Below, piece after piece: positions 17,228 through 36,101 of a DNA stretch of 47,549 bases. Position numbers and translations under genes: made by a program. Below the pieces are notes generated by a model, which did not search any database, had not been told where the DNA came from, and saw nothing but the letters and a program-made list of their open reading frames with translations. Origin of the DNA: Gallionella sp. (GTDB taxonomy: Bacteria; Pseudomonadota; Gammaproteobacteria; Burkholderiales; Gallionellaceae); contig JAJDNO010000047.1 in the NCBI GenBank assembly GCA_022340615.1, forward strand, positions 1 through 47,549, read 5' to 3'. Within the stretch, counting starts at the first letter, position 1. The number at the start of each line of letters is the position of its first letter.

Positions 17228-17403
17228 CCGCCCGAAATACACCTGATCATGCGGCGAATACTTGTCAAATCAGCGTCGACAGGCATTTCATCCCGAACTC
17301 GCCTCACGCCATCCCTTTAATATATATATCATAGTGTTGGATACAGCCAAACCATCTCAAGTTCATCTCGACAATTCCGGGTTACGGCCATATGTTAATT
17401 GTG

Positions 17404-17451
17404 GTTTAGTTGATCCATGTCAGTGCAGTGAAAATCGTTTGCAGTTATGTT
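17404..17451 (+). promoter_or_regulatory. FNR-type promoter, left copy
   Basis: Contains the FNR/ANR-like box TTGAT-CCAT-GTCAG (17410-17423) and a -10 candidate TATGTT starting 29.5 nt after the box centre. This is the geometry of a class II FNR promoter (box centred near -41.5). The block GTTGATCCATGTCAGTGC (17409-17426) and the block CGTTTGCAGTTATGTT (17436-17451) recur identically, at the same spacing, on the minus strand at 36054-36101 before the second oxidase operon. The predicted start is near 17458, about 285 nt before the first small gene. Confidence 0.75.
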
Positions 17452-17741
17452 TCCACCTGTTCTACTGCGAACTGAAAAGCGGTTTTTCGCGGTTATCACC
17501 TTCGCCGGGAGCGACACAGCCTGAGCGAAGATCATGTGGGCAGGATTCATATCGTTGATTGATGTTATGAAACCGGAAAATATGCGTTTCGGCAATCTTT
17601 TGCAGGGTTGCCACAACATAAGGAAACGTCTATTCCGCCCCGAAAATTGACGCAAATGACACATTGCAGTCTTGATGTTATTATCATCTAAGCCCTTGAA
17701 TTAGGGATTGTTAATATTATTATCATTCAGAGGAGAAGGAA

Positions 17742-17849
17742 ATGCTTGAACCATATGACACAAATACCGCCGATGTTGTAGGCATGTATATAGGTATATT
17801 CGTGTTTTTATTTGGCCTGGCTATTATTCTAATGAAAAAGAATTCCTGA
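17742..17849 (+). CDS. Tiny single-helix membrane protein (35 aa)
   Basis: A 35-residue peptide starting MLEPYDTNTADVVGMYIG, with one predicted membrane helix (about residues 12-31) and a Lys-Lys-Asn-Ser tail, so N-out/C-in by the positive-inside rule. A strong AGGAGAAGG ribosome site lies just before the ATG. It is the first gene after the FNR-type promoter and precedes the diheme cytochrome. Size and topology resemble small oxidase subunits (CcoQ class), but the sequence is not recognised. Three other 36-residue membrane peptides occur in the same region. Confidence 0.7.
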   Translation: MLEPYDTNTADVVGMYIGIFVFLFGLAIILMKKNS

Positions 17850-17906
17850 TTAGCTTGTCCTGCATTAGGTGCTGGTAATTAAAATATTTTGAGTGGGGAG
17901 GGGTAC

Positions 17907-18671
17907 ATGAGTAAATTATCCAATTTGGCGCTGGCAGGTTTGGGGGCAGTCGCCATGCTGGCATTTTCAGGAGCAGGCTTTGCCGATCAAGGCGTTGTCA
18001 CGGCAAATCCCGCCAATGGGAAGAAAATCTTCGAAAATGGCATAGGCGACAAAGTTCCTGCTTGCGCTACATGCCATGGCGACAAAGCCATGGGCAACGA
18101 TGATATGGGAACTCCGAGGCTTGCTAACATCGGATTTGTATACATCGTCAAGCAACTGCACAATTTTAAAGAAGACAAGCGCAAAGACATGACCATGTTC
18201 CAGATGAACGATATCGCTAAAAACCTGACCGATCAGGATATGCGGGATCTTGCATCATATGAGGACACCTTCCCATTGGACAATCCTGAAGTCTCCGATC
18301 TCAAGCAGCTTAAAGCCAATGGCACAGTGGTAGGTGAATCCTACAAGGGGAAAATACTGGTTACCTATGGTTCGGACAAGGTTTCCGCGTGCAAATCCTG
18401 CCACAGCTATGATGGCCGTGGCGCCGACCCGATATTTCCGAAGATCGGTCACCAGAAATATGTTTATCTGGTCAATCAGCTGACACATTGGCGCGACGGT
18501 ACCCGTGCGAACGATCCGAAGAAAATGATGGAAAAGATCGCCCAGAAGTTGTCTGACGACGATATCCACAATGCCGCGACGTACTTGTCGCAAGCAGCTG
18601 ACAGCACAGCTGGGGACGGTTATCAATTTAACAACGAAACAGTTCTGGATAACATTAAAATCGTCAAGTAG
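17907..18671 (+). CDS. Periplasmic diheme cytochrome c (c4-like)
   Basis: A 254-residue secreted cytochrome with a signal peptide (cleavage likely after GFA, about residue 26). It has two heme c sites, CATCH (53-57) and CKSCH (162-166), each at the start of one class I-type domain. The two halves are similar to each other (NGKKIFENGIGDKVPACATCHGDKAMG versus YKGKILVTYGSDKVSACKSCHSYDGRG), the internal duplication seen in cytochrome c4. Such proteins donate electrons to terminal oxidases. The ATG at 17907, behind GGGGAGGGG, is preferred over the start six codons upstream. Two tandem hairpins follow the stop. Confidence 0.9.
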   Translation: MSKLSNLALAGLGAVAMLAFSGAGFADQGVVTANPANGKKIFENGIGDKVPACATCHGDKAMGNDDMGTPRLANIGFVYIVKQLHNFKEDKRKDMTMFQMNDIAKNLTDQDMRDLASYEDTFPLDNPEVSDLKQLKANGTVVGESYKGKILVTYGSDKVSACKSCHSYDGRGADPIFPKIGHQKYVYLVNQLTHWRDGTRANDPKKMMEKIAQKLSDDDIHNAATYLSQAADSTAGDGYQFNNETVLDNIKIVK

Positions 18672-18705
18672 TATATATTGGCGTAGTTAGGCATTCTTGC
18701 AGCTC

Positions 18706-18730
18706 TCCCGCACCAATTATCGGTGCGGGA
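18706..18730 (+). other. Perfect hairpin after the diheme cytochrome gene
   Basis: TCCCGCACC / GGTGCGGGA, a 9-bp perfect stem with loop AATTATC. It has no T-run of its own, so it may be a 3'-end stabiliser or part of a tandem stop with the hairpin at 18741-18769. Confidence 0.7.
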
Positions 18731-18740
18731 GGATTGATGG

Positions 18741-18769
18741 AGACTGGTCTGCTTTGATCAGTCTTTTTT
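18741..18769 (+). terminator. Rho-independent terminator or attenuator
   Basis: AGACTGGTC / GATCAGTCT form a 9-bp stem with one G-U pair and a six-base loop, followed by a run of T residues to 18769. It ends the 17742-18671 transcription unit, or partly attenuates reading into the downstream cytochrome and half-oxidase genes. Confidence 0.8.
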
Positions 18770-18833
18770 GCTTTGTAGGTTCCCTGAACTAATAATGTTG
18801 TTCATGGTCTTCCTGTTTTAATCAAGATTGGTG

Positions 18834-19415
18834 ATGATGAAAAAGGGTGAAAAGATTCTATTTGGGATAGTGGGGTTTCTGGTTGTAATTACTGTAATTA
18901 ACTTTACCGTATTGGAGAAAGCCAGCCATAAATCAGACAAGCCGTTGTACCCCATTCTGACGCATTACGATTTTTCGCCTGCGGGCATGCGCGGTTACAG
19001 CATATATGAGCATGACAATTGTTACGATTGCCATAAGGCGGTAGGCAGCGGCACCAGCATGGGTGTTACCCTGGACGGCCTGGGATCAGAGCATGACGTG
19101 AATTATTTCTACAATTTCCTCAAGTATCCGGAAAAAACCTATGGTGCAAAAACCCTCGATCATGGCGCACCGCCCAAGGATGCAGCATATGTTTCCTCAC
19201 TTCCGGATTCGGACCTGCATGACATCGCGATATTCCTGTCGGAGCTGAAGTCCGACCAGGGCTCTTCGTCATCCTTCGAACCACCCAAAGGTGACTCCAG
19301 CTTCATTGATGCCATGGTTGATATGTGGACGCCCGCCAACTGGAGAAGCAAGTACAGGGATATTCGCGAATGGATGAAATCAAAAAATGAGGACAAGCAT
19401 GACGGAAAGCAATAA
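18834..19415 (+). CDS. Membrane-anchored monoheme cytochrome c
   Basis: About 193 residues. An N-terminal helix (about 8-26, ILFGIVGFLVVITVINFTV) anchors a periplasmic heme c domain with CYDCH (about 63-67). This layout is that of CcoO/NorC-type cytochrome subunits. It is a paralogue of the cytochrome at 31009-31491: both begin with a K-G-E-K lead into the helix and share an LDG(L/I)GS motif about 15-20 residues after the heme site. The start is uncertain (TTG, GTG and two ATG codons lie within 12 nt, with a weak ribosome site). The 3' end overlaps the half-size subunit-I-like gene, so the two products are probably made together. Confidence 0.87.
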   Translation: MMKKGEKILFGIVGFLVVITVINFTVLEKASHKSDKPLYPILTHYDFSPAGMRGYSIYEHDNCYDCHKAVGSGTSMGVTLDGLGSEHDVNYFYNFLKYPEKTYGAKTLDHGAPPKDAAYVSSLPDSDLHDIAIFLSELKSDQGSSSSFEPPKGDSSFIDAMVDMWTPANWRSKYRDIREWMKSKNEDKHDGKQ

Positions 19416-19914
19416 ATTGAGCGCTGCGCAAAACAAGGAATTCACCCGGTATATCCTGTTTTTTGTGTATGCCTGCATAATCTACAGCATCATCGGCTTT
19501 TCCTGGGGTGCCATTATGGGCGGTATTCCGGCCTTCAGGCATTTCGTCGACTACAGTGCACACGGCCGCCTGATTACCCTCGCGCACGGGCATATCAATC
19601 TGCTGGGCTGGGTTGAAATGGCGATATTTGCTTCCTTGTATTATGTGGTCCCTACCCTTACACGCCGGTCAATCTACAGCCTGCGCCTGGTTAAGGTTCA
19701 TTTCTGGATGCACAATTTCGGCCTGATCGGCATGGTGGTATTTTTCTTTTCAGCCGGACTGGTCGGCGGCCTGAGCACTGGCCCGGATACCGAGAAACTG
19801 GTCAGTCATCTGCTTGCTTTTGTCGGTATATTCGGAACACTGGTTCTGACAGCAAATATCATATGGGGTTATAACCTGTACAAAACCACAGTAGGGTGGC
19901 AGAAAGAGGCATGA
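19399..19914 (+). CDS. Half-size heme-copper oxidase subunit I-like protein (copy 1)
   Basis: A 171-residue protein with about four membrane helices. The segment LAHGHINLLGW (His63, His65) matches the HxH helix of CcoN-type subunits, where the histidines bind the high-spin and low-spin hemes. The following part (RRSIYSLRLVKVHFWMHNFG, then LTANIIWGYNLYKT) aligns with the last helices of the full CcoN in this window (KRKLYSITLANMHFWLLLIG, then FSGNILWLYNMWMT). The CuB ligands, active-site tyrosine and the partner histidine of low-spin heme are absent. The start MTESNK follows GAGGA; it overlaps the cytochrome c gene by 17 nt and the next gene by 4 nt. Function unknown. Confidence 0.85.
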   Translation: MTESNKLSAAQNKEFTRYILFFVYACIIYSIIGFSWGAIMGGIPAFRHFVDYSAHGRLITLAHGHINLLGWVEMAIFASLYYVVPTLTRRSIYSLRLVKVHFWMHNFGLIGMVVFFFSAGLVGGLSTGPDTEKLVSHLLAFVGIFGTLVLTANIIWGYNLYKTTVGWQKEA

Positions 19915-20414
19915 ACAAACGGTGGCTTCTATCGGTTTGTTGCGTGATCGTCCTGAGTTTGCTGGGCGGATGTGGCCAGGGCGGCCTGTCCGCCGGCTTC
20001 ACTATAGGCCAGAAAGCGCCCAGTCTTCCCACCAAGACCCTGGCCGACGTGGGCGGTGACTTCAGCAAAATCACCACCTACCGGCAGCCTGACCCGCGCA
20101 TGTATCAGTATTCAATCGACAAGGCTCTGCTGACCGGCAAGCCTATCGTGCTTGAATTTGCGACTCCCGGTCATTGCACCAATTGTGATGCGCAGCTCCA
20201 GGTACTCAAGGCCATACTCGACAAATACCAGGGGCAAATGATATTCATCCATATCGACCAGTATGAAAATCCCCAAGCTTACAAAGCATATCAAGTCATG
20301 GGGGATCCCTGGACGTTTCTGATCGACAAGCATGGCATTGTCCGCTTCGAGCGCGCGGGTGCAATGCTGTACGGCGAACTGGATATGGCCATCAAGAAGT
20401 TCTTTCTGTCTTGA
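19911..20414 (+). CDS. Thioredoxin-like lipoprotein
   Basis: A 167-residue envelope protein with a lipoprotein-type signal (hydrophobic helix ending in LLGGC, Cys about residue 21) and a thioredoxin fold. The putative active site is GHCTNC (C-x2-C) after IVLEFATP, and the cis-proline region is GDPWTFLID. TlpA/Sco-like proteins of this kind reduce apocytochrome cysteines or deliver copper to oxidases. Sco proteins have CxxxC plus a distal His, whereas the CxxC here is closer to a thiol-disulfide reductant. It is translationally coupled (ATGA) to the half-size subunit-I-like gene, which supports a role in assembling that module. Confidence 0.82.
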   Translation: MNKRWLLSVCCVIVLSLLGGCGQGGLSAGFTIGQKAPSLPTKTLADVGGDFSKITTYRQPDPRMYQYSIDKALLTGKPIVLEFATPGHCTNCDAQLQVLKAILDKYQGQMIFIHIDQYENPQAYKAYQVMGDPWTFLIDKHGIVRFERAGAMLYGELDMAIKKFFLS

Positions 20415-20462
20415 CCATCCAGTGCTCATTGCAACCAACTAAAAATTACAGGCAGCAGACCT

Positions 20463-20936
20463 ATGGCTGACAAAGAAACAGCAGGTAAGATTCAGATTGA
20501 ACTGGTCAGGGATCGCAAGGGAATGATATGGGACTTGCTGCTTTACATTCCAACAGTCGTTGCGCTTGCCTCGATTTCAGCCAGCTTCTGGTACGGCAAC
20601 AACCACAACATGGGATATTTGTTTTCCTTTCTTACCTGTTTCTTTTTTATAGCCGGATTCAATCGAATATTCAAAACACGTTTGATGCTGCTGCCGTCAG
20701 CTCCGATTTCCATATCCGTAGACGAACAAAGCCTGGGCTTGCAGCAGAAAAACGGTAACCGTATTGATCTGATAAAAAGTCTTCGTTATTACCCTGACTA
20801 TGCGGGCAAGTCCTTCGGGATTTCTGGTTTGGATGGCATGGGAAAGCAATTGCAGTTTGTGTTCCACCGCGGGCAGTTTGCAACTGCGGAGCAGTATGCT
20901 AGCGTTCAGGACAAACTGAAACGCCACAAAAAATAA
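20463..20936 (+). CDS. Membrane protein with cytoplasmic PH-like domain, unknown function
   Basis: A 157-residue protein not recognised by name. Two hydrophobic segments (about 22-45 and 50-68) form a hairpin, followed by a beta-rich soluble region (SISVDEQSLGLQQKNGNRIDLIKSLRYYPDYAG) of the kind seen in bacterial PH-like or YcxB-type domains. It ends in a Lys-rich tail (KLKRHKK). It follows the thioredoxin-like gene by 48 nt on the same strand and is the last gene of the left operon before the strand switch. Function unknown. Confidence 0.65.
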   Translation: MADKETAGKIQIELVRDRKGMIWDLLLYIPTVVALASISASFWYGNNHNMGYLFSFLTCFFFIAGFNRIFKTRLMLLPSAPISISVDEQSLGLQQKNGNRIDLIKSLRYYPDYAGKSFGISGLDGMGKQLQFVFHRGQFATAEQYASVQDKLKRHKK

Positions 20937-20977
20937 CGGCGGGATACACCGGGGCGTACACGATATCACTGCCCTTT

Positions 20978-21178
20978 TTACTTCCGTCCTGAACGTCTTT
21001 GAATCACATCCCAGGTCATGTAACCAATGACCCCCACGACCATCAGGCAAGCCAGAACGATAATCTGCAACTCTGATTGCGGACTTACCAGTCCGCCTAT
21101 GAACATGTGCACCGCATAACCGGTAATGAATAGCGCGCTGATCGCAACCACCAAATACATCAATATTTCGCCCATCAT
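20978..21178 (-). CDS. Small two-helix membrane protein, unknown
   Basis: 66 residues with two predicted membrane helices (about 6-27 and 37-56) and a basic C-terminus (QRRSGRK). It is 14 nt downstream of the 480-residue membrane protein gene on the same strand, suggesting co-expression. No family recognised. It is convergent with the PH-like protein gene. Confidence 0.6.
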   Translation of the reverse strand: MMGEILMYLVVAISALFITGYAVHMFIGGLVSPQSELQIIVLACLMVVGVIGYMTWDVIQRRSGRK

Positions 21179-21192
21179 GCCATTTGCTCCCG

Positions 21193-22635
21193 CTATTTGG
21201 TTGTTGTGGACTCCTTGATTTCAATAATAACCCCGCCGCGCTGCAGGGCAACTGTCTCGACTTTTCCTGCATCCATCATCGCAAGATTGTGTGACAGCGA
21301 GTGATTCGCAGGATCTCGCGGATCAAACAGCAGATACTTGACACCCCTCATCATCGCCAACAAGGTTTCCTCGTCCTTGGCTGCAGGAGGCAGTGGCAGG
21401 GTATCGCAGCGGCATGCCAGCATGGTCCTTGCAGGCCACTGGCTGGCTATCCGTATCGGCTTGCCCGAAGGTAAATTTTTCTGTTGCCGGTCACTTGCCA
21501 TGTTTTCAACATTATCGACATACGCCTTGATCAGACGGTCACTTGATGCAAGCTGCCCGGCCAGCATGGCCTTATAGTGCGACTTATCAATCATCATATA
21601 AGTCGTGGAAATTACGACAAACAGCACCAGAACCACACCCCGCTGCTGCCAGAATCCGCCTTGGAATTCCGTGTCCTTCTGCAACAGCAAAGGCAATCCC
21701 CAGTAAAGGCTCGTGACGAGTGCAAACATGCCGAGCGTATCATCACCGGTCAGCATGCCTATCGCCAGTGCAAGCAGAAAAATGCACCCCAGAAAATCCG
21801 TCCATAAGTTTCTCCCCTGCTTCAAAACAATCAGGAAAAGGATAGCCAGGACCCCGATCCCGCTGAACCAGCGGTCGGTTTCAAGAACTTTGCTGCCAGC
21901 CGGCCCCTGCAGCACTGTTGATAAGCCCCTGACTGGATTGGAAAGCCACGTAACATGACTCCACCCCATTGTCAGCACCAAAGCCAGCAGAACGGTGAAA
22001 ATGATTCCTGCAAAGAAATAATGCTGCTGCTTTTTATTGACAGGATCCTTGTACCATCGCCAGAACAAGGCCAGAGGATATGCAAGCCCGGCAGGATGCA
22101 GCGTTACGCTCACCAGACTCAGCAACATTTGCAGGAAATACCTTCCCCCGAATGCCTGAGGCAACTCGCGGTATTTCAGGTCGGTCCAGGCGCCAATCGC
22201 AAATGTAAAGAGCAGGAAAGGTCCGACCGAAATAGTGTCGATCTGACTAAAAACCAGAGGGGAAATAAGCAGCAAACCGGTTGCCAGAAGTGCACCTTCT
22301 GTTTCCCCGCTGCGCCGGCGCCATGAATGAACAGCCCAAGTGGCGACTGCCATTACCAGGATCGTAAATATCTTTGCGGCCAACAGATTTCCTGTCCACA
22401 AAAAGCCGACCGGGGCGAGAAACACAGCCCGGAAATCCGGAAAACCCAAAGTAACGACCGAACTTACCACATTGTCCACTACCGACCAGGTCAACAACAA
22501 AGCCTGAGCCGCACCTTCATCAATGCCATAGGAAGACTTGTTCAACAACATCAGGCACATACCTCCCCAGCATATCAGTGCTAGGTAAGCCCAGTATCTT
22601 TGTGGAATCTGTAATTGCCAATTTTTCATTTTCAC
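21193..22635 (-). CDS. Polytopic membrane protein, unknown (glycosyltransferase-like topology)
   Basis: 480 residues with about 10 hydrophobic helices in the first 360 residues, then a soluble C-terminal domain of about 120 residues that includes PVGFLWT-type loops and CRCDTLPLPP. The early acidic YGIDEGAA motif after helix 1 resembles the first-loop acidic residue of membrane glycosyltransferases of the GT-C class (ArnT/PMT). The final domain (VKYLLFDPRDPANHSLSHNLA) would be periplasmic. This is a topology-based guess. A 66-aa gene follows directly. It diverges from the tiny membrane peptide gene at 23028. Confidence 0.6.
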   Translation of the reverse strand: MKMKNWQLQIPQRYWAYLALICWGGMCLMLLNKSSYGIDEGAAQALLLTWSVVDNVVSSVVTLGFPDFRAVFLAPVGFLWTGNLLAAKIFTILVMAVATWAVHSWRRRSGETEGALLATGLLLISPLVFSQIDTISVGPFLLFTFAIGAWTDLKYRELPQAFGGRYFLQMLLSLVSVTLHPAGLAYPLALFWRWYKDPVNKKQQHYFFAGIIFTVLLALVLTMGWSHVTWLSNPVRGLSTVLQGPAGSKVLETDRWFSGIGVLAILFLIVLKQGRNLWTDFLGCIFLLALAIGMLTGDDTLGMFALVTSLYWGLPLLLQKDTEFQGGFWQQRGVVLVLFVVISTTYMMIDKSHYKAMLAGQLASSDRLIKAYVDNVENMASDRQQKNLPSGKPIRIASQWPARTMLACRCDTLPLPPAAKDEETLLAMMRGVKYLLFDPRDPANHSLSHNLAMMDAGKVETVALQRGGVIIEIKESTTTK

Positions 22636-23027
22636 TTGTTTCCTGATGGGAATTTTAAGACGGACCTACAAAAGGCATGTACGGCTGCTGGCACGCCGGC
22701 GCTGATATTGAATTGCTTTCCACAATTGAGTTGTTGGGGAAGAAAACTGTCGGTATCCGGGAGTTGGATAGGCCAAGATTGGATCGGACCTGCGGAAGTT
22801 AATAATTAAATTCTGACCGATTTTATCAGCAAGTAAACCATGGCTGCAATTATTTAAATACCGACATTACATTAATACGCTCCACTAATTTTGTTACACT
22901 TTTAACAGTTGCATGCACATGGTGATTCCGCTAGACTTGCGTGCAAAGGGTGGCTGGTTTTTGCATGAATACCGCAGCCTTTTCAATACTTACTATAATG
23001 TCGTGCAACCAAACGGAGGGATGTAGC
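22636..23027. other. Divergent intergenic region, AT-rich
   Basis: About 390 nt between divergent genes, with no supported gene. A TATAAT at 22995-23000 lies 28 nt before the tiny peptide gene and is a plausible -10 for it; no good -35 is visible. An imperfect inverted repeat TTGCATGC ... GCGTGCAA brackets about 22908-22946. The shared FNR-type promoter of the other two operons is not found here. Confidence 0.45.
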
Positions 23028-23138
23028 ATGCCAATCGAACTTCTTGTACCAATAGGAATTTTTCTTCTGGGTGTGGTGGTTTCAGTAAGCCTGTCCACAC
23101 TGGGAATTGAACGCGTCATTGAGGCAAACAAGTCTTAA
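23028..23138 (+). CDS. Tiny single-helix membrane protein (36 aa)
   Basis: 36 residues (MPIELLVPIGIFLLGVVVS...), with one hydrophobic helix (about 4-23) and a charged tail ending EANKS. A GGAGGG ribosome site just upstream supports this start over the in-frame upstream start at 22941. It has its own candidate -10 and a downstream hairpin with T-run. It precedes the second half-size subunit-I-like gene, paralleling the tiny peptide at the head of the left operon. Confidence 0.7.
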   Translation: MPIELLVPIGIFLLGVVVSVSLSTLGIERVIEANKS

Positions 23139-23179
23139 TCAAAACCTGCCCCTGATTACCAAACACGCTTCGAAAGTGT

Positions 23180-23205
23180 CCGGCTGGAGCCGGGCATTTT
23201 CTTTT
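23180..23205 (+). terminator. Candidate terminator after the 36-aa peptide gene
   Basis: CCGGC-TGGA-GCCGG hairpin (5-bp stem, 4-nt loop) followed by GC and a T-rich tract (ATTTTCTTTT). It lies 41 nt after the stop codon, so the tiny gene may be monocistronic or only partly co-transcribed with the downstream half-oxidase gene. Confidence 0.65.
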
Positions 23206-23305
23206 GTAGTGCCATAGAATCAGCGTATTTATTTCCGGCCACCAAGATTAGCAATCTCTCCGGCTTTTATTCTCCCGTAATTCCAAACCTGAATCCCGGC
23301 ATTCT

Positions 23306-23821
23306 ATGCAACCAGATCCTCTGCACCGGTATCTCCTTAAATTTTTACTGCTCTCGGCCTTTTCGTTTTTCGTAGGAACGATTCATGGAATGCTGCAGGT
23401 TATGCCGCCAATTCGGGCGTGGCTGGATTCGATCGGAAGTCCCTATGGCGGCCCAGGCCATATGATCGACCCGCTGGCACATGCGCATATGAATCTCGTA
23501 GGCGGAGTGGTTTTACTCGCAATGTGCGTTACTTTTTATCTGTTGCCGATTTTTGCGGAAAGAAAGATATATTCAATCAAACTGGTACAACACACTTTCT
23601 GGTGGGTAAGCATTGGGGTATACAGCTTTTACATAATCCTGATGACTTTCGGTATCTGGGAAGGTTTGCTCTTGCACTCCCATCCGCAGGAAGTAGCCTC
23701 AGTCCACCACTATTATAGTGTTGCAGTCGCAATTTCCGGCACGGTCATGGCCGTCGGATTCTGCACTTTTCTGGCCAATGTCATTCTGACCATGGTTGCC
23801 AAACCGACCAGACAGGACTAG
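23306..23821 (+). CDS. Half-size heme-copper oxidase subunit I-like protein (copy 2)
   Basis: 171 residues, about four membrane helices, homologous to the protein at 19399-19914. It keeps the HxH motif (DPLAHAHMNLVGG, His59 and His61) and the downstream signature (AERKIYSIKLVQHTFWW; LANVILTMV). Extra histidines occur in the first helix (GTIHG) and in a loop (LLLHSHPQEVASVHHYY). As in copy 1, no CuB-ligand helix, active-site tyrosine or N-terminal low-spin heme ligand is present. Unlike copy 1, no cytochrome c gene is adjacent. It ends 17 nt from the convergent FixH-like lipoprotein gene. Confidence 0.83.
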   Translation: MQPDPLHRYLLKFLLLSAFSFFVGTIHGMLQVMPPIRAWLDSIGSPYGGPGHMIDPLAHAHMNLVGGVVLLAMCVTFYLLPIFAERKIYSIKLVQHTFWWVSIGVYSFYIILMTFGIWEGLLLHSHPQEVASVHHYYSVAVAISGTVMAVGFCTFLANVILTMVAKPTRQD

Positions 23822-23837
23822 ATGGACTAGAGCAGTA

Positions 23838-24227
23838 TCAACTCACATCCAGTTTGATCGGAAAGCGCAATATTTTCTGCTTTTTACCCTGCTGTATCAT
23901 TACCCTGACAATCCCGTTCCTGTTCTCGCCTATGTCGATTGCACGGCGGTAAACGCCTATATACCCATCCTCGATAGCCTGAATCCACGGCTCTGATTCG
24001 GACCCGCGAAGGGAAACGATCAGATCTCCTGCGGGTTTGCCGTGTGGGCCGGTGATAATAACGACGACTTCGGACATGCCGGCAATCGGAGGACTCGGAT
24101 GAGTCTGTATACGCACCACCATGTTTTCCCAGTGTTGCGGTGGAATTGAGGAGTCAGTTGCACTATCGCTGCAAGCGACCAGCCCGATAGCCAGCGTACT
24201 GAATATGATTCCCAGGTATCGATTCAC
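23838..24227 (-). CDS. FixH/YtkA-like lipoprotein
   Basis: 129-residue lipoprotein: the signal helix ends in LVAC (lipobox, Cys about 19), followed by one beta-sandwich domain. The pattern PPIAGMSEVVVIITGPHGKPAGDLIVSLRGSES...GYIGVYRRAIDIG resembles YtkA-like/FixH domains found in cbb3 oxidase assembly proteins. It appears to use a GTG start. It is the last gene of the run ccoG-like, heme-less CcoP-like, FixH-like, echoing ccoGH order in canonical cbb3 clusters. A copper-related or maturation role is inferred only. Confidence 0.7.
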   Translation of the reverse strand: MNRYLGIIFSTLAIGLVACSDSATDSSIPPQHWENMVVRIQTHPSPPIAGMSEVVVIITGPHGKPAGDLIVSLRGSESEPWIQAIEDGYIGVYRRAIDIGENRNGIVRVMIQQGKKQKILRFPIKLDVS

Positions 24228-24269
24228 GATCTAGACATTAACTTGAACAAATCGGAATCGGTTCCATTC

Positions 24270-24698: not shown

Positions 24699-24709
24699 CA
24701 CAATATCTC

Positions 24710-26026: not shown

Positions 26027-26060
26027 GTATACCTTTTCTTGCCGGGCCAGCTACATCAAG

Positions 26061-28703: not shown

Positions 28704-28839
28704 ATGGAATTATTCGGGAATTGCAGCCGATGCTGGATCCGCAGCCTCGCTATTGGGCTCAGCCATGCAGAAAAGCCAGGATAAGGAATTGGAACTAATT
28801 GGCGCAGCCCGGCTGTCAGTAGCCTTCAAGGTACTGTTA

Positions 28840-29232: not shown

Positions 29233-29244
29233 TGCATACCTGCT

Positions 29245-29490
29245 TTATAAATAGTTTATGGTTTCGCCATCCGCCGCTTCGCGTTTGGATTTACGTATGG
29301 CGTTTTTCCAGGCCAGCACTGCCATGAGCACAAAAGGTATGAAGACCATCATCATCAGAAACAGGAAAATGTACCAAGGTGTTTCAATGGTAACGTGCAT
29401 GTAGCGGTAGCTGTCCACTTGGGCCTGCGCGGATGTAGTAACGGCCAAACTGACCAGTGCCAGTAAATTCCTAACCCATTTGCAGTTCAT
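29245..29490 (-). CDS. Small secreted/membrane protein, unknown
   Basis: 81 residues: signal peptide (about 1-24, ending AQA), a short periplasmic segment with several Tyr, one membrane helix (about 36-62, PWYIFLFLMMMVFIPFVLMAVLAW), and a basic cytoplasmic tail (KNAIRKSKREA). The type I topology suits a small accessory oxidase subunit. It lies 20 nt after the SUMF1-like gene. Function unknown. Confidence 0.6.
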   Translation of the reverse strand: MNCKWVRNLLALVSLAVTTSAQAQVDSYRYMHVTIETPWYIFLFLMMMVFIPFVLMAVLAWKNAIRKSKREAADGETINYL

Positions 29491-29510
29491 GATAACCCTC
29501 CGTATTTCGG

Positions 29511-30572
29511 TTACTTCTGTTCATCGGCTGCGCAACGGAATCCGTAAAAATCCGATGCGGAATTCGGCCAGGCATAATCTCTGTGATAGCTCGCCGTGGA
29601 GAAGGGGTCGCCCTTCCATGATCCTCCGCGCAATACCTTGTAATGCCGATTTACCCGAACCAGGGTGGATATTTTCAAGGCCTGATCTTCCGCACCCATG
29701 ACTTTGGAAACCTTGCCCTGGAACACATCTGCTGTCGCATCCGTATTTTTATAGGGAAGGAAATCATCGGCTGTCCATTCGTCAACATTACCCGCCATGT
29801 CGTAGACACCGTATGGGCTTAGACCGTTGGCATAGGTCGTGACATCGGTTGCAGAGCCAACATCATAGTATGTGTTCAGACGCTTGGGATCCATTTGATT
29901 GCCCCATGGCCAACGCCTGCCGTCTGTGCCGCGAGCAGCCTTTTCCCACTCTGCCTCGGTTGGCAATCGTTTGCCCGCCCATTTGCAATATGCCGCTGCA
30001 TCGTACCAGTTCACCATGGATACCGGATACTTCAAAGTACCTGGTTCGATTTTCCCTTTTTTCCAATCCAGAGGCGGACGATGTCTGGCCGCTGCAACAA
30101 ATCGCGCGTATTGCGCATTCGTCACCAGATATTTGTCTATTCTGTAGGCCTTTAACTTGACCTTGTGTTCCGGGTGCGCGGAATCATTGGCCATTTTCAA
30201 ATTTGTACCCATCAGAAAGCTCCCTGCCGGGATTCTTACCATACTATCCAGATTCTCCCACTGACCCTTGGATAACAGGGCCTCTGCTTCATCCAGGGTA
30301 TATCCCGCAGCCTGATTTATTCTTTTCTCATTCTCTTCGTGAAGCACAATATCCTCACCTTGCGCCCGTATCTTGCTTGATTCCTCTCTCAAATCATAAG
30401 TTGCCAAGGCACGCATCTCGCCCATGCGCATTGAGCCCAATCTGCTCACATGCAGGCATCCCAAAATCATTACCAGAGAAATGCACGTGATCAGCGTGGC
30501 AGAAAGATACCGCTTCCTGCGTAATTGCTCTTGCGGATTTGTTGCTGCAGCAGGTCTAGATGCCGTCGACAT
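29511..30572 (-). CDS. Membrane-anchored formylglycine-generating-enzyme (SUMF1/NirV-like) domain protein
   Basis: 353 residues: a short cytoplasmic N-terminus, one helix (about 22-42, YLSATLITCISLVMILGC), a charged linker and then an FGE/SUMF1 domain (about 110-350). Family hallmarks visible are MVRIPAGSFLMGTN, YPVSMVNWYDAAAYCKWAGKRLPTEAEWEKAARG, YGVYDMAGNVDEWTAD, VLRGGSWKGDPF and the terminal FYGFRCA. Related NirV proteins accompany nitrite reductase genes, and other relatives generate formylglycine in sulfatases; neither substrate type is present here. A periplasmic scaffold or maturation role for the oxidase is inferred. Its start overlaps the stop of the upstream gene by one base. Confidence 0.85.
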   Translation of the reverse strand: MSTASRPAAATNPQEQLRRKRYLSATLITCISLVMILGCLHVSRLGSMRMGEMRALATYDLREESSKIRAQGEDIVLHEENEKRINQAAGYTLDEAEALLSKGQWENLDSMVRIPAGSFLMGTNLKMANDSAHPEHKVKLKAYRIDKYLVTNAQYARFVAAARHRPPLDWKKGKIEPGTLKYPVSMVNWYDAAAYCKWAGKRLPTEAEWEKAARGTDGRRWPWGNQMDPKRLNTYYDVGSATDVTTYANGLSPYGVYDMAGNVDEWTADDFLPYKNTDATADVFQGKVSKVMGAEDQALKISTLVRVNRHYKVLRGGSWKGDPFSTASYHRDYAWPNSASDFYGFRCAADEQK

Positions 30573-31012
30573 TACGATTCCCTTGTTGCGGTAATTTGCT
30601 CTCCGCTATCCTTCTTGGATCGCCCATAAATACCCTTCTTCATTACTTCACCCATGACTCCACCGATTACAGCTGACTCCACCGACAGAACCACATAAAG
30701 GCTCCACCAGCCCAAGGGGTTCAAATTGGTGCCATGCGGAGTGCCGGACACATAATAGATTTCTGCATAACTTAAACAGCGCACGATTATTGGCGGAAAA
30801 TAGCACAACCATTTACCACCCAGTCCGTATATCCAGGATACGGCCAGTCCGACCAGAAATGGCACAAAGAAAACATCCAGTATCCATGCGAAGCTGAATG
30901 TAGACAAACCCGAAAACAGTTCGATTTTTACCCCAAGCAACCTGTCGCCGAAGTGGATCATGGACATCCCGATCATCAGAGCAACAAGACCCCTCAAAGT
31001 TCGATTGTTCAT
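30572..31012 (-). CDS. Polytopic membrane protein, unknown
   Basis: 146 residues with about four hydrophobic segments (7-24, 40-65, 68-85, 100-125) and a basic tail. There is a conserved-looking tract IYYVSGTPHGTNLNPLGWWSLYVVLS. It overlaps the downstream end of the monoheme cytochrome gene by 4 nt and the SUMF1-like gene by one base, so all three are translationally coupled. No family recognised. Confidence 0.65.
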   Translation of the reverse strand: MNNRTLRGLVALMIGMSMIHFGDRLLGVKIELFSGLSTFSFAWILDVFFVPFLVGLAVSWIYGLGGKWLCYFPPIIVRCLSYAEIYYVSGTPHGTNLNPLGWWSLYVVLSVESAVIGGVMGEVMKKGIYGRSKKDSGEQITATRES

Positions 31013-31491
31013 TTCGGATAATCCTTGCCGGTTAATTTCTCATACTCGGATTTTTTGGTTTGCTCAAGGTACCAGTCCTTAACCTTGAGACTGGCCAGAT
31101 ATTGCGCCAACAGATGTCGGTCACCATCCGGCATACTTGCGTAAGATGGCATGCTCCATTTCTTTTTCAAGCGAGTTGGTAAAATCGACTGCGGATCGGG
31201 AGAGGAAAGATACGCATACAACCATGCTTCGCTGCGCAGCGAGCCGATGCCATCCAGCATTGGAGCCGGGACCGATTCAAGTATATCTTTCATCGTCCAT
31301 AATGAATGACATACAGAACAGCCATTTTTATTGTAGATAGCCATCCCGTTTACTGACAAATCATGCGTAGCCGTCGTATAAAACGGAATATCACGATCGT
31401 GCTTTCCCTCAACATGCAGCATTGAACGGATTACACCTGCAACAAGAAACACGCCAATCAAAGCCAGGATTGCTTTTTCTCCGCGTTTCAT
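31009..31491 (-). CDS. Membrane-anchored monoheme cytochrome c (paralogue)
   Basis: 160 residues: one N-terminal helix (about 7-24) and a periplasmic heme c domain with CSVCH (58-62). It shares architecture and motifs with the cytochrome at 18834-19415: the K-(K/R)-G-E-K lead-in, LDGIGS after the heme, and the YAYLSSPD region matching YNFLKYPE. A methionine in KKWSMPSYASMPD is a candidate axial ligand, as in CcoO-type cytochromes (SxMP). It overlaps both neighbours by 4 nt. A role as an extra electron-transfer subunit of the cbb3-like oxidase is inferred. Confidence 0.88.
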   Translation of the reverse strand: MKRGEKAILALIGVFLVAGVIRSMLHVEGKHDRDIPFYTTATHDLSVNGMAIYNKNGCSVCHSLWTMKDILESVPAPMLDGIGSLRSEAWLYAYLSSPDPQSILPTRLKKKWSMPSYASMPDGDRHLLAQYLASLKVKDWYLEQTKKSEYEKLTGKDYPK

Positions 31492-31766
31492 ACGCCCAGC
31501 TTGCGCCTTTCAGCTTCTTCCGCCAAATGGCGCTTCCGGCTTTCGATCTGTGAATCAATGACTGCACGACTTTTCGTATATTCTTCCGGCGCCATTTTGC
31601 CCTGATCTTTTTCGTCAAATATTACGTATTTGATATCCTCATCGAACTGTTCGTTTTGTGCACCCCACCTGATCCAGTAAAGTACCGCGAGAATAATCAT
31701 TGCACCGATAATCAACCATAAATATATGCTCCATCCATCCGGAAGCGTTTCAAAAAAGTGAGCCAT
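31488..31766 (-). CDS. CcoS-like cbb3 oxidase maturation/small subunit
   Basis: 92 residues: one helix (about 14-34, YLWLIIGAMIILAVLYWIRW) followed by GAQNEQFDEDIKYVIFDEKDQ. This fits the CcoS pattern (helix, then W-x-x-x-x-G-Q-F-D-D-x...I-L-F-D-D), with a longer, coiled-coil-prone charged C-terminus (residues 55-92) than CcoS (about 50-70 residues). CcoS is required for cofactor insertion into CcoN. A GGAA-type ribosome site precedes the ATG; the end overlaps the cytochrome gene. Confidence 0.68.
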   Translation of the reverse strand: MAHFFETLPDGWSIYLWLIIGAMIILAVLYWIRWGAQNEQFDEDIKYVIFDEKDQGKMAPEEYTKSRAVIDSQIESRKRHLAEEAERRKLGV

Positions 31767-31787
31767 AGTAGTTTCCTTGTCAAATTG

Positions 31788-32090
31788 TCAAAATAGAATG
31801 CCACCAAGCATCTGCATCGCGGCAATTATTACTGCAGCCACAACACCAAGAATGATTGCTCCGAATAGTATACTTTCTCCCAGCCTTGCCTTCTTCGGAC
31901 GATTTTTGTTGAACATCAACGCAATTATTATTCCCGAAAACAGCAATATGCCGACCATCAGAAAGACAAATATCCACTCGCTGAATTCCTGGCTGCGCAT
32001 GCCCTCGATGCTGAGGTCTAGCTTGGGTGAAATTTCGGGATTAATCTGCGTGACAAAAAGCTGGATAGTGTTGATAGCTTGAATGAGAAT
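31788..32090 (-). CDS. Membrane protein of the oxidase cluster, possible ATT start codon
   Basis: Two or three helices in a protein of 70 residues if started at the ATG at 32000, or 100 residues if started at an ATT at 32090. The ATG has only GAGGGC directly before it, too close for a good ribosome site. The ATT is preceded by AGGAG at a 6-nt spacing and by an in-frame stop codon. The extra 30 residues read ILIQAINTIQLFVTQINPE, plausible as an amphipathic lead-in. Helices are at about 37-57 and 70-95 of the long form. I list the long form but with doubt. No family recognised. Confidence 0.55.
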   Translation of the reverse strand: MLIQAINTIQLFVTQINPEISPKLDLSIEGMRSQEFSEWIFVFLMVGILLFSGIIIALMFNKNRPKKARLGESILFGAIILGVVAAVIIAAMQMLGGILF

Positions 32091-32128
32091 CTTTGGCTCC
32101 TAGTTGCAACTTATGCCTACCTAAACAA

Positions 32129-32160
32129 AAATGCCGCGCCGTATATTCGGCGAGGCATTT
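32129..32160 (-). terminator. Rho-independent terminator of the ccoNO-containing operon
   Basis: AAATGCC-(mismatch)-CGCCG / CGGCG-(mismatch)-GGCATTT stem with loop TATATT, read on the minus strand and followed by TTTTTGTTT. It lies 72 nt beyond the stop of the 36-aa gene. It divides the minus-strand genes into a right operon (35916-32232) and a left set starting near 32090; readthrough is possible. Confidence 0.82.
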
Positions 32161-32231
32161 CATATGATTACTAATTTTACTCAGTAAACCAGACCTTAGC
32201 TAAACCAATTTTGTTTGTATTTGTAATTATG

Positions 32232-32342
32232 TTACTTCTTTTCATTACGACGATCGATGAAAAGAGCATAAAAAATCGGCATAGCAAAAGCCAGAGCAAT
32301 AATAAAGGATATTGCGAGCGGACCGTTATCAAGTTCAATCAT
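32232..32342 (-). CDS. Tiny single-helix membrane protein (36 aa, CcoQ-like position)
   Basis: 36 residues (MIELDNGPLAISFIIALAF...), one membrane helix (about 7-27) and a basic tail FIDRRNEKK. It has an AGGAGG ribosome site in front of the ATG. It is the last gene before the terminator and directly follows the heme-less CcoP-like gene. Size, single helix and charged C-terminus resemble CcoQ, although gene order differs (CcoQ normally lies between CcoO and CcoP). Confidence 0.72.
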   Translation of the reverse strand: MIELDNGPLAISFIIALAFAMPIFYALFIDRRNEKK

Positions 32343-32410
32343 TCCAGTTCCTCCTAAAAAATTAAAGTTGCAAACCGGATTGGCTTAATGTGCAGACAAT
32401 CCGGCCACAA

Positions 32411-33028
32411 TCAATGATTATGCCTTGGCTGCCAGCTCGACGGAGGCAGTCGCTTGATCAGTATCGTTACCCCAATGAAAAAGTAGCTCAGGTAGAAAAT
32501 GTCAATCAGATAGCCCTTGTCCCACCATGGCTGCTTTCTTATGACCGTTCCATCAGCTCTTTTGTTTCCCTCGAAGTTTGCCATTACCACATGGTCGCCA
32601 ACAACTTCGTACTCGTCCATATGCACACCTTTGGCCATCAATGCTTCCATCTCGGGTTTCATGATACGCAGATCATCCATGGTTACCGGGTGGCGTTCCA
32701 GCATGCCATCATGCCCCTTGCCCTTGTTCAACTGGATGATTTTCTCCATCGCTTCCTGGTCATTTTTGGCCGCCAAGACTTCTGGATTGCTCATTGCTTT
32801 AATATACCCTTCATAGATTTCAGCTGTGGGGCGCTGGCCCCACAGAGGAAACGTAACCGCAAAAGCGGTAATGACGGTAAGTATGACGAGCAGCACAATG
32901 GGCACAGGCAAGCGATTGTTATCTTCCGTGATGCCGCCCAGATCTTCTTTTTCCCACAGCACTTTGTCCGCCTCATTCGTGGCTGAGTCACACATTGTGC
33001 GCAATGGCTTATCAAAATTCCAAGACAT
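32411..33028 (-). CDS. Heme-less CcoP-like oxidase subunit (long form)
   Basis: 205 residues. The N-terminal part (GGITEDNNRLPVPIVLLVIL) matches the start of CcoP (EDNNPLP then a membrane helix, about 42-62, ending FPLWGQRP). Instead of the two cytochrome c domains of CcoP there is a soluble segment of about 100 residues and a second helix (about 172-193). There is no CxxCH; the only cysteine is at residue 13. It follows ccoO by 13 nt with a strong ribosome site, the position of ccoP in canonical clusters. A shorter relative is encoded at 24270-24698. Confidence 0.8.
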   Translation of the reverse strand: MSWNFDKPLRTMCDSATNEADKVLWEKEDLGGITEDNNRLPVPIVLLVILTVITAFAVTFPLWGQRPTAEIYEGYIKAMSNPEVLAAKNDQEAMEKIIQLNKGKGHDGMLERHPVTMDDLRIMKPEMEALMAKGVHMDEYEVVGDHVVMANFEGNKRADGTVIRKQPWWDKGYLIDIFYLSYFFIGVTILIKRLPPSSWQPRHNH

Positions 33029-33041
33029 GTCCTACCCCCTC

Positions 33042-33998
33042 TTATTTAAGGCTCAAAATCCAGTCAATCAGACCGCGAATTTCGGAATTGCTGGCATAAC
33101 TTGGTACGTCAGGAGGCGATACACGCTTGCCCTCACGATACTCGTTATATTCTTCACGCCATTTGGCGAAATCTATTTTTTTGCCATCCGCATCCGTCTT
33201 GCCCCACAAATAGTCGAAGCGCGGCATGATGGAGTGCGGCTGCACCAGGCGAGGATTGAAGAAGTGCATCATCATCCATTCCTTGGAGGAATTGCGCGAT
33301 CCAACGTGCAGCAAGTCAGGTGCTTTGCGGTCAGAACCGAATGCGGTTGGGGATTCACCATTGAAATCGCCCAGCATCGGCGGTGCACCAAACACCTGCC
33401 AGTCCTGCGTTTCCTCGGGCAGCAGTGTATGGCACCACCAGCAGCCCTCTCGAATGAACATGGTTTTACCCTTGCCGGCTTCAGAAACATCCGAATCCTT
33501 GGCCACACTCATCACGTCAGCTGGCGTCCAACCCTTGGTTGCGGTCAGATTGTCAATATAGCTGTATTCTTTGCCCTGATAGAGCCCCTTAGCTATAGTG
33601 AAAACCGCCCCAACGTTTTTGTTTGCATCATTAACATGCCCCTGCTGCACGCTCAACTCCTGGATACCTTCACCCAGAATCCTCGGATGCATCACACCCG
33701 ACGGGAACGATGTCCCCTTTTCGTAGACATAAACCTGCATTCCCCCGTCTATAGGCTGCTTGGTCTTAGGATCTACTTTCAGCGATACGCCCAGCGGCTT
33801 GTTCTTGCCCTGCATCCACGGATCATCCAGATTGAATCCGGATTCACGCCCCACCTCCAATTGCTTGGTAAGGGCGATATCCGTTGAGGACACTGACGCA
33901 ATATTGATGCTCGGAAAAAACAAGGTAATTGTCATCGACCCGCCCAGCGCCAAGCCGAACAGTCTCGCTCCGATTTTATACTCCCTAAATCCAGCCAT
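33042..33998 (-). CDS. ccoO: cbb3-type oxidase monoheme cytochrome c subunit (CcoO-like)
   Basis: 318 residues: N-terminal helix (about 12-30) and a periplasmic domain with one heme c site CWWCH (186-190) and a candidate axial methionine in SIMPRFDYLWG (about 258), equivalent to the SxMP of CcoO. Between the helix and the heme there are about 155 residues, longer than in typical CcoO, including a Lys/Gly-rich beta segment. CWWCH with two Trp is an unusual heme motif. It lies 33 nt after ccoN and before the heme-less CcoP-like gene. It would receive electrons from the diheme or monoheme cytochromes of this region. Confidence 0.88.
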   Translation of the reverse strand: MAGFREYKIGARLFGLALGGSMTITLFFPSINIASVSSTDIALTKQLEVGRESGFNLDDPWMQGKNKPLGVSLKVDPKTKQPIDGGMQVYVYEKGTSFPSGVMHPRILGEGIQELSVQQGHVNDANKNVGAVFTIAKGLYQGKEYSYIDNLTATKGWTPADVMSVAKDSDVSEAGKGKTMFIREGCWWCHTLLPEETQDWQVFGAPPMLGDFNGESPTAFGSDRKAPDLLHVGSRNSSKEWMMMHFFNPRLVQPHSIMPRFDYLWGKTDADGKKIDFAKWREEYNEYREGKRVSPPDVPSYASNSEIRGLIDWILSLK

Positions 33999-34031
33999 TC
34001 TTGATCTCCCTAAGTTTTTCTTGGCTCAACA

Positions 34032-35438
34032 TTAGCGCTCGTATGCCAGTTCATGAGGCAAACGACCCTGAGGTACAACAGTCCCTTTGCGTGCCGTCAT
34101 CCACATGTTGTACAGCCACAGAATGTTCCCAGAGAACACCATGGAGCCACCCAGCCAGCGCGCGATCATGTAAGGATGCTCCGCAATGACCACGTCGATG
34201 TAGGGAACCTCATATATCTTGCCCGCACCCTGAATCAGGCCGGCAATCGTCATTGAAACCCAGTAAGTGGTAAATCCGATCAGCAGCAGCCAGAAGTGCA
34301 TGTTGGCCAGAGTGATGGAATACAGCTTGCGCTTCATGATTGACTGTATACCGTAATAAACAGCCGCTACTTCCAGGAATGTCGAGAATCCCAGCAATGC
34401 CAAATGCGCATGCGCCACAATCCAGCCGGTTCCGTGGATATACCAGTTGATAGCACGAGTTTGCTGGAATCCGCCCTGCATATTCAGCGGAATCGCCATC
34501 AGACATCCGGTTACGGTAAAACGAACCTCGATATTCTCGACGAACATATACCACTTGCCCTGCATCGTCAGCATGATGTTAGACACGAATGCGATTGCAG
34601 GAACCAGAATCAGCACACCCTCTACAGATGCGAACGACTTCAGCCACTCGGGCAGAGGCGCAGACATCAGGTGATGAGCTGCCGGGGTTGAATAGAACAC
34701 CACCACCGACCAGAAGTGCAAGTGACCGATACGGTGTGAGTACAACGGATTCCCCGTCACCTTTGGAATGGTGTAATAGGCGATCGCCGCTGCCACCGGA
34801 GTGATCCACAGCCCAAGCACATTATGAGCGAACCACCAGGTCAGGTATGCCTCGGTCAGGCCGGTCAAATGGAAAAATTCTGGCAAATTGCCAATCAGGA
34901 ACACGATAATGACCATGAAGGTCGCTGCCGCAAAAAACCAGTTGGTCGTGTATATACCCTGTGTACGGCGATTCAGGATCGTCATCCAGACGTTGATGCC
35001 GAGAGGTATGAACACACAGGTCGCAAGGTACAGGTCGATCGGCCATGGGAAGTCGGAATATTCGCGGCCGGAAGTAATACCTGCCCACAAAACCGTCAGG
35101 CCCAGAGTCAGACCCAGGTTCCACAGGAAGCAATTCCACAACCCCAGCTTTTCAGACCACAATTTATTGTTACCGAGCGCGGGCGTGATATACATCATGG
35201 CCATGGCGAATGCCATTGAAATCCAGCCGAAAATAACCGCCATCACGTGAACCTGGCGCATATGGCCGAAAGCAAAATATTCATTGCCAGTCACAAAATC
35301 GGGAAATGCGAGCTTTGCCGCATTGAATGAACCCAGGCCGGTACCGATAACGAACCAGATTATGGCCGAAAACCCGAAGAATATCGCCGCAGAACCAGAC
35401 GGTATGTCCTCGTTCTTGGCAAATAGATATTTAAGCAT
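34032..35438 (-). CDS. ccoN: cbb3-type heme-copper oxidase catalytic subunit (CcoN-like)
   Basis: 468 residues, about 12 helices; binds low-spin heme b, high-spin heme b3 and CuB and reduces oxygen to water. Ligands by position: His64 (RQVH) and His345 for heme b; His343 for heme b3 (VAHAHLALLG); His205 (WWFAHN), His255 and His256 (TPAAHH) for CuB. Tyr249 lies six residues before His255, the spacing of the cross-linked tyrosine of cbb3 oxidases. All positions are offset by two from the Pseudomonas stutzeri numbers I recall. The tyrosine argues against a nitric oxide reductase. By counting, the glutamate 22 residues before the heme b3 histidine is Gln321 here. A GGAGGGG ribosome site precedes the ATG. 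Confidence 0.93.
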   Translation of the reverse strand: MLKYLFAKNEDIPSGSAAIFFGFSAIIWFVIGTGLGSFNAAKLAFPDFVTGNEYFAFGHMRQVHVMAVIFGWISMAFAMAMMYITPALGNNKLWSEKLGLWNCFLWNLGLTLGLTVLWAGITSGREYSDFPWPIDLYLATCVFIPLGINVWMTILNRRTQGIYTTNWFFAAATFMVIIVFLIGNLPEFFHLTGLTEAYLTWWFAHNVLGLWITPVAAAIAYYTIPKVTGNPLYSHRIGHLHFWSVVVFYSTPAAHHLMSAPLPEWLKSFASVEGVLILVPAIAFVSNIMLTMQGKWYMFVENIEVRFTVTGCLMAIPLNMQGGFQQTRAINWYIHGTGWIVAHAHLALLGFSTFLEVAAVYYGIQSIMKRKLYSITLANMHFWLLLIGFTTYWVSMTIAGLIQGAGKIYEVPYIDVVIAEHPYMIARWLGGSMVFSGNILWLYNMWMTARKGTVVPQGRLPHELAYER

Positions 35439-35470
35439 GTGCTACCCCTCCCTCAAATCGAATGAAAACT

Positions 35471-35581
35471 CTAGTGATTACCGGCTTCATTTTTTCTATC
35501 ATGTGGAACAATGATGTACCAAGACAGCAACATACTCGAAAACGCCAGCAGCACTCCAAGTGATCCCGCAATTAAAGCCAT
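35471..35581 (-). CDS. Tiny single-helix membrane protein (36 aa)
   Basis: 36 residues (MALIAGSLGVLLAFSSMLLS...), one helix (about 3-25) and a polar tail HDRKNEAGNH. An AAAGGGG ribosome site precedes the ATG. It lies between the 92-aa membrane protein gene and ccoN in the operon, so is probably a small accessory subunit. No family recognised. Confidence 0.7.
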   Translation of the reverse strand: MALIAGSLGVLLAFSSMLLSWYIIVPHDRKNEAGNH

Positions 35582-35637
35582 AACAACACCCCTTTAAGAA
35601 TAATAAATGTCAATCGAACAAGCCGAACGCATCGAAT

Positions 35638-35916
35638 TTATCCAGCCGCCTGTTCCAATTTATCATGGCGAGTCAGACCCACCACCAGAATCACACAAAA
35701 CGCGAAACCGAATACAAACATCGCCCAATCTATGAACCCAGTGAATGTCGAAGGATCATAGGATGTCAAGCCTGGACCACCCCATTTGGCAAAGCCGCCA
35801 CGCCCCAGCAAGCACATCAAGGTTGCACCGAACACGCTGCCATTCCCCATGCCAGTCAACATCCCGCCTATGATAATTGTCCAGAAGGATCGAGATGTAA
35901 TCGACTTTGTACTCAT
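35638..35916 (-). CDS. Small membrane protein, first gene of the ccoNO operon
   Basis: 92 residues with helices at about 11-35 (Gly-rich, FWTIIIGGMLTGMGNGSVFG) and 60-82 (FIDWAMFVFGFAFCVILVVG). The C-terminus is charged (HDKLEQAAG). A GGGGGT ribosome site precedes the ATG. It is the first gene downstream of the FNR-type promoter at 36054-36101 and upstream of the tiny peptide and ccoN. No family recognised; an oxidase accessory role is inferred from context. Confidence 0.68.
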   Translation of the reverse strand: MSTKSITSRSFWTIIIGGMLTGMGNGSVFGATLMCLLGRGGFAKWGGPGLTSYDPSTFTGFIDWAMFVFGFAFCVILVVGLTRHDKLEQAAG

Positions 35917-36053
35917 TTAAAACCCCCTTTAAAGTTAATTATAATTAACACGTCATTCCGATCAGGCCAAAATTCTCATGAGAATCATACATCTAATTTT
36001 CTCCGAGCCCCAGCAGCGTGAAATCCTAGCGTGAACTGTCCCATACACGGCGT

Positions 36054-36101
36054 AACATAACTGCAAACGCCTGACAGCGCACTGACATGGATCAACCAAA
36101 C
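36054..36101 (-). promoter_or_regulatory. FNR-type promoter, right copy
   Basis: Minus-strand copy of the element at 17404-17451: GTTGATCCATGTCAGTGC (36096 to 36079) with the FNR-like box TTGAT-CCAT-GTCAG, nine variable bases, then CGTTTGCAGTTATGTT (36069 to 36054) ending in the -10 TATGTT. The box centre is 29.5 nt from the -10 start, as in the left copy, giving a predicted start near 36047, about 130 nt before the 92-aa gene. Only the nine central bases and one upstream base differ. Confidence 0.78.

Follow-up and report, generated by a model that had tools for sequence, protein, structure and literature searches.

In ANR/FNR-controlled cbb3 operons, a low-oxygen regulator governs a high-affinity oxidase. 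Promoter propagation, as Matus-Garcia et al. (2012) reportedly described it for prokaryotes, copies a promoter region before a non-homologous gene. For class II promoters, PMC3688515 and PMC7349173 place the FNR box at -41.5. Two elements with this predicted geometry, a and b, lie in the window, that is, the whole stretch of 47,549 nucleotides analyzed here, which is an entire contig of a Gallionella sp. genome (2.27 Mb, 78 contigs, completeness 99.47%):

17409..17451, plus strand: element a, with the FNR-type box TTGATCCATGTCAG at 17410-17423, a 9-base gap, and CGTTTGCAGTTATGTT containing the -10 TATGTT at 17446-17451
17458, plus strand: transcription start for element a, predicted from class II geometry
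36054..36096, minus strand: element b, with the same box at 36095-36082, the gap, the -10 at 36059-36054, and a predicted start at 36047

Each element spans 43 bp and is laid out exactly as the original prediction had it, with an 18-mer, a variable gap of nine bases, and a 16-mer; the 34 fixed bases are identical between a and b (34/34), and the gaps agree at 3/9 bases. The distance from the center of the FNR-type box (17416.5 in element a) to the -10 TATGTT is 29.5 nt, again in agreement with that prediction, and both boxes are centered at -41.5 from the predicted starts, which is the class II position. The box has the form TTGAYN4RTCA in both elements, the second half ending in G, not A. Alone it is unremarkable, since the exact form TTGATN4GTCAG occurs three times in the window and the form with at most one mismatch occurs five times versus 3.06 expected, a count reached by 20/100 shuffles. 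The genome search proposed along with the prediction found the composite pattern only twice in 2.27 Mb at up to three mismatches, both times without any mismatch (17409-17451, plus strand; 36096-36054, minus strand), and the reversed control gave no match in the same 2.27 Mb. The 34-base composite far exceeds random expectation, and a chance match was rejected. Element a has hemN, which is divergent, on one side and a cytochrome c operon (operon a) on the other, element b sits between fnr and an oxidase operon (operon b), and both point into the 18.7-kb segment between them. In the window the two are alignable only over -33 to +42, with an ungapped identity of 57% from -30 to -1 and 30% from +1 to +30, so that the claim of unconserved flanks holds roughly there, but not in the related genome G070, where copies a and b share a block of 340 alignment columns that includes the fnr tail.

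Around element b we found the following genes:

36162..36923, minus strand: fnr (NF008365, 247 bits, cut-off 228), its end 65 bp upstream of element b
35638..35916, minus strand: 92-aa protein, first gene of operon b, no NCBIfam match
34032..35438, minus strand: cbb3-like heme-copper oxidase subunit I, operon b
33042..33998, minus strand: CcoO/FixO-like c-type subunit, operon b
29511..33028, minus strand: further operon b genes, namely, a 205-aa protein, a 92-aa protein, a cytochrome c (31009-31491), a 146-aa protein, and an FGE-like protein (29511-30572)

The subunit I protein reaches 237.7 bits against TIGR00780 (ccoN), for which the cut-off is 583, and thus fails as canonical cbb3. Its Y249 and H255-H256 align with Y251 and H257-H258 of Pseudomonas stutzeri CcoN (3mk7), a tyrosine and a His-His pair that we take to be active-site residues. 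Judged by its sequence, the operon b oxidase is, broadly, a C-family (cbb3-type) oxygen reductase. The position of cbb3 Glu323 is occupied by Gln, within an MQGG motif. Of 202 loci with a gene for this oxidase, the best 80, all named, were compared; the closest relatives among them by oxidase gene are Gallionellaceae MAGs, including "Candidatus Gallionella acididurans." The "Distal" ccoN form of the Gallionellaceae, as named in PMC10734462, is probably, at a guess, this same divergent oxidase; the main text of that paper contains neither "fnr" nor "promoter." In the window, the ORF at 37502-39298 (plus strand) resembles NuoE/HoxE models over its first part and NuoF over the remainder, with every score under the cut-off, as a HoxE-HoxF fusion might.

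Element a has these surroundings:

15797..17191, minus strand: hemN, divergent neighbor upstream of element a
17200..17408, plus strand: region upstream of copy a, where a truncated 3' piece of fnr stands in G070 and G077 (and, decayed, in G061 and G081)
17452..17680, plus strand: leader a, apparently from a canonical cbb3 5' leader, as traced through relatives (only a weak match when compared directly)
17656..17684, plus strand: candidate downstream sigma70-like promoter, ATGACA-17-TATTAT, preceded by TG
17742..17849, plus strand: 35-aa ORF MLEPYDTNTADVVGMYIGIFVFLFGLAIILMKKNS, absent from the ORF list, with one hydrophobic stretch
17907..18671, plus strand: c-type cytochrome, operon a, with two Cytochrom_C stretches
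18828..19415, plus strand: c-type cytochrome, operon a
19387..19914, plus strand: 175-aa protein, operon a, matching the C-terminal part of COX1
19896..20414, plus strand: thioredoxin-like protein, operon a
20463..20936, plus strand: 157-aa protein, operon a, no Pfam match

Two oxidase operons had been predicted, but operon a turned out to be the cytochrome c and accessory operon of the same oxidase system. Among the best 80 of 202 loci, the cytochrome block lies on the same strand as the oxidase in 50 (47 upstream, 3 downstream) and on the opposite strand in 2, while in the remaining 28 it falls outside the stretch compared, giving an upstream same-strand share of 47/52. This linkage across loci indicates that operons a and b are the two halves of one system. 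Two proteins of about 170 aa in this region (19387-19914 and 23306-23821, plus strand) match only the C-terminal part of COX1/CcoN. The 35-aa ORF before the cytochrome c gene is conserved in 6/6 loci carrying copy a and in several relatives.

We then compared Gallionella genomes. A scan of 61 genomes for the exact-core element with up to three mismatches recovered 2 genomes, a less strict one of 76 genomes from the genus recovered 8, and a wider pattern recovered 12, with 18 copies, one to three in each. Copies a and b are both present in G000 (the window genome), G021, G061, G070, and G081, and copy a is present in G077; G061, G070, and G081 share contig places with the oxidase loci L006, L045, and L007. 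In G006, G012, G031, and G083, an element with equal spacing and 27 to 30 of 34 matches lies between fnr and ccoN. The ccoN of G083, the only one of these four scored against TIGR00780, passes the cut-off, and those of G006, G012, and G031 are called canonical because they are about equally similar to the window ccoN (30 to 32%).

The proposal of a promoter duplication is borne out by homology that, in relatives, runs past the functional core into an fnr 3' fragment and a cbb3 leader at copy a. Codons for fnr residues 195 to 253 stand upstream of copy a in G070, where they contain an in-frame stop, and in G077. This fnr tail is decayed in G061 and G081 and undetectable upstream of G021 copy a; upstream of the window copy a, nhmmer detected no fnr fragment, and comparison with the tails of the relatives gave none above shuffles. 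The window sequence at this place matches only that upstream of G021 copy a (79 versus a shuffle maximum of 44). On the other side, 6/6 copy-a leaders score higher against the cbb3 leader of G083 than any shuffle (55 to 287 versus maxima of 39 to 50), strongly in five of them and weakly in the window (55 to 56 versus 45), whose leader matches that of G021 copy a more strongly (123 versus 48); 4/5 b leaders stay below the shuffle maximum, and that of G070 lies slightly above it (47 versus 44). By eye, one and the same 3' junction links all six copy-a leaders to the cytochrome operon's native -10 region, which suggests a single insertion in an ancestor shared by all six, including the window. 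Judged by the fnr fragment and the cbb3 leader in the relatives, copy a is a piece of the fnr-cbb3 promoter region. G096 has no fnr match at 1e-40, no element, and no trace of the insert; a 14-gene tree leaves it close to or inside the clade without fixing its position and a two-gene tree groups it with G077 (92/96), which leaves a loss of the insert in G096 or a different branching order. The joint absence of fnr and elements from G096 was dropped as functional evidence, owing to this unfixed position and to the TTGACA-type promoter, like that of outgroups, before its oxidase operon.

Selection on the shared core, also part of the original prediction, is supported by copy-a identities of 0.94 for the box and 0.91 for the 16-mer, versus 0.61 for the gap and 0.49 to 0.74 for the flanks (5 of 6 copy-a loci, G081 left out). 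The candidate downstream promoter of operon a has its first hexamer within the inserted DNA and, by eye, a native -10 region. A consensus scan gave three sites of this type in the region versus 2.3 in shuffles, so that the support for this promoter comes from the conservation of its -10 region in relatives. That conservation below the insertion, together with an altered -10 in G070 copy a (TAAGTT), would suit a reading in which Fnr is of little weight, operon a being driven by the downstream promoter and copy a being a decaying passenger. We consider this improbable, given that the 34 core bases of copy a are identical in G000, G021, G061, and G081 although the attached fnr fragment has decayed. 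Operon a probably also keeps basal transcription from the predicted downstream promoter, and its dependence on Fnr may be partial.

The presence of an Fnr gene adjoining copy b was confirmed (36162-36923, minus strand). Cysteines 28, 31, 37, and 130 of the window Fnr align with the cluster cysteines of solved Fnr, and the protein thus has both the four Fe-S cysteine positions and the ETxSR motif, as ETVSR. The recognition helix reads ETVCR in 8/12 aligned Fnr sequences covering it. The element was found in 9/10 genomes with a close fnr (at least 69% identity) and in 3/66 without one (n = 76, genomes not being independent); G087 has a close fnr, at which its contig ends, and no element was found there, and G077 has the element and no full fnr match. 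This co-occurrence, and the single Fnr match at 1e-40 in the window genome, make it quite unlikely that a different Crp/Fnr protein acts at the boxes, even though other genes of the Crp/Fnr type (42 to 47% identity) are frequent in the genus. In the window's own genome, TTGATN4RTCAR gives 45 matches (both strands, palindromes counted twice), and the reversed control gives 6. We inspected 27 loci among these and found 21 boxes inside ORFs of at least 100 codons; six boxes remain, at a, b, L092, L094, L103, and L109, and only a, b, and L094 have TANNNT 22 to 23 bases downstream of the box. A wide Fnr regulon in this genome was rejected on these grounds. The L094 box, TTGATCTATGTCAG, around position 1501, is a possible further Fnr target, lying upstream of a 122-aa ORF without NCBIfam match and of an ORF that, by eye, resembles a ferredoxin-type reductase.

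The element was also found before other genes. G021 has a third copy (L216, 2703-2745) before a multicopper oxidase-like gene for which no NCBIfam match reaches its cut-off (the best is copper_res_A with 136.8 of 479, and the model for nitrite reductase gives 98.6 of 296), and in G020 and G094 the element precedes an ORF resembling cytochrome c (CxxCH read by eye; its family match stays under the cut-off), which in G094 is followed by a Rieske gene passing its cut-off. Within the stretches examined, all 18 copies in the 12/76 genomes stand before redox or respiratory genes. A second fnr and, by eye, a transposase-like ORF lie near the third copy in L216. Separately arisen promoters in which the same Fnr selected the same core could account for like elements before the multicopper oxidase-like and cytochrome-c-like genes, the latter with a Rieske gene next in G094, and for a strongly conserved core; but the relatives share DNA far past any binding site, namely, the fnr 3' fragment and the cbb3 leader at copy a, and we regard such convergence as very improbable. 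Least credible is an origin as a dispersed repeat or as a small mobile element. The three G021 copies and the transposase-like ORF might evoke one, but the window genome has just two copies and the 18 copies in the genus are confined to redox or respiratory promoters so far as the stretches examined show; many copies beside unrelated genes were looked for in the window's own genome and in 76 genus genomes and were not seen.

The promoters of the oxidase itself were compared over up to 450 bp before the operon in 76 loci (74 of the best 80, L209, and L207, a repeat of L005). An FNR-type box in operon direction occurs in 3/76, namely, L006, L007, and L045, exactly the 3/80 loci with fnr among the best 80 of 202; none occurs in the other 73, and L050 has a looser reverse-type match. 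The pattern TTGACA-N17/18-TAnnnT stands 152 to 238 bp before the operon in 33/73 of the remaining loci (0.3% in shuffles) and in 0/3 of those with the box. By this strict pattern, 40/73 lack a TTGACA-type promoter, being largely gammaproteobacteria and Ferrovum relatives, so that only the closer relatives reveal the ancestral promoter. An FNR-type box precedes the cytochrome gene in 0/24 loci. In G061, G021, G070, and G077, the canonical-type ccoN, which passes TIGR00780 in G061, is located elsewhere in the genome with sigma70-like promoters and has no FNR-type box in the 700 bp upstream, where G083, G006, G012, and G031 do have one. The window genome gives one ccoN-type match at 1e-30, from which canonical cbb3 appears to be absent there. 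Fnr control has thus apparently moved from canonical cbb3 to the divergent oxidase.

We also considered whether the two copies change in concert, using trees of fnr, of the promoters (with long branches for G000), and of 14 genes. In G070, a and b are alike at 310/323 positions (96.0%) over -236 to +50, versus 297/328 (90.5%) for G070 copy a and G077 copy a, which share the insertion (Fisher p 0.007, the comparisons not being independent). This likeness is most simply explained by gene conversion or by a second duplication, but short-read assembly of such a repeat could mimic it. Copies a and b of G061 are 79.7% identical, with no homogenization in G061 or G081, and the a-type core of the b copy in G000 and G021 is only suggestive of conversion. 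The divergence of the G070 a and b leaders was rejected as support for conversion because the b leader is of other origin. Inversion of the inter-copy segment was rejected as well, the order being the same in 3/3 genomes whose two copies share a contig (G000, G021, and G070), among which no flipped form occurs. A tentative idea, which we hold to be rather less likely than its negation, is that the inverted copies, about 19 kb from each other, undergo gene conversion and the oxidase halves thereby stay under matched Fnr control, after the transfer of control from canonical cbb3 to the divergent oxidase.

Taken together, elements a and b are very probably copies of one Fnr-dependent class II promoter, originally located between fnr and the canonical cbb3 operon and placed before both operons of the cbb3-like oxidase. 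The parts of this reading that have direct backing in the sequences are the shared promoter, the remnant of fnr and the cbb3 leader next to copy a, the common 3' junction, the lack of a TTGACA-type promoter at b, and a core conserved next to decayed flanks. The promoter between fnr and the canonical cbb3 operon would be the ancestral state in Gallionella. In the ancestor of the clade, a piece running from the last approximately 60 fnr codons through the promoter and about 230 bp of cbb3 leader would have been inserted before the cytochrome c operon, and the oxidase operon of the cbb3-like system would have joined the promoter beside fnr itself; the order of these events is inferred. Fnr, active at low oxygen, would bind the predicted boxes at -41.5 and recruit RNA polymerase without a -35, so that both oxidase halves would be induced together at low oxygen, operon a having added basal transcription from its predicted downstream promoter.

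A literature search short of full texts found no account of this promoter pair. It would be a clear natural case of genes brought under new control, leaving a readable trace of regulatory rewiring, in that the promoter would have been copied with a broken piece of the regulator gene. Sister species with the donor-type arrangement and relatives that lack the insertion belong to this trace too. A swap of the oxygen-controlled oxidase within the genus is also suggested, which bears on the low-oxygen life of these bacteria. Compared to the E. coli FNR class II promoters listed in the relevant part of PMC3688515 (narG, dmsA, and nirB, at -41.5), the elements have the same box center relative to predicted starts and a matching -10 distance, but their second half-site is RTCAG (GTCAG in the window, not ATCAA) and an extra conserved GTTTGCAG stands just upstream of the -10. 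Sister Gallionella share, by sequence, the ANR/FNR-cbb3 arrangement, whereas in the window clade the controlled oxidase is the divergent cbb3-like one. As in promoter propagation, a promoter region was apparently copied before a non-homologous gene; here, however, a piece of the gene for the regulator itself marks the copy, and it is the halves of one enzyme system that come under one control.
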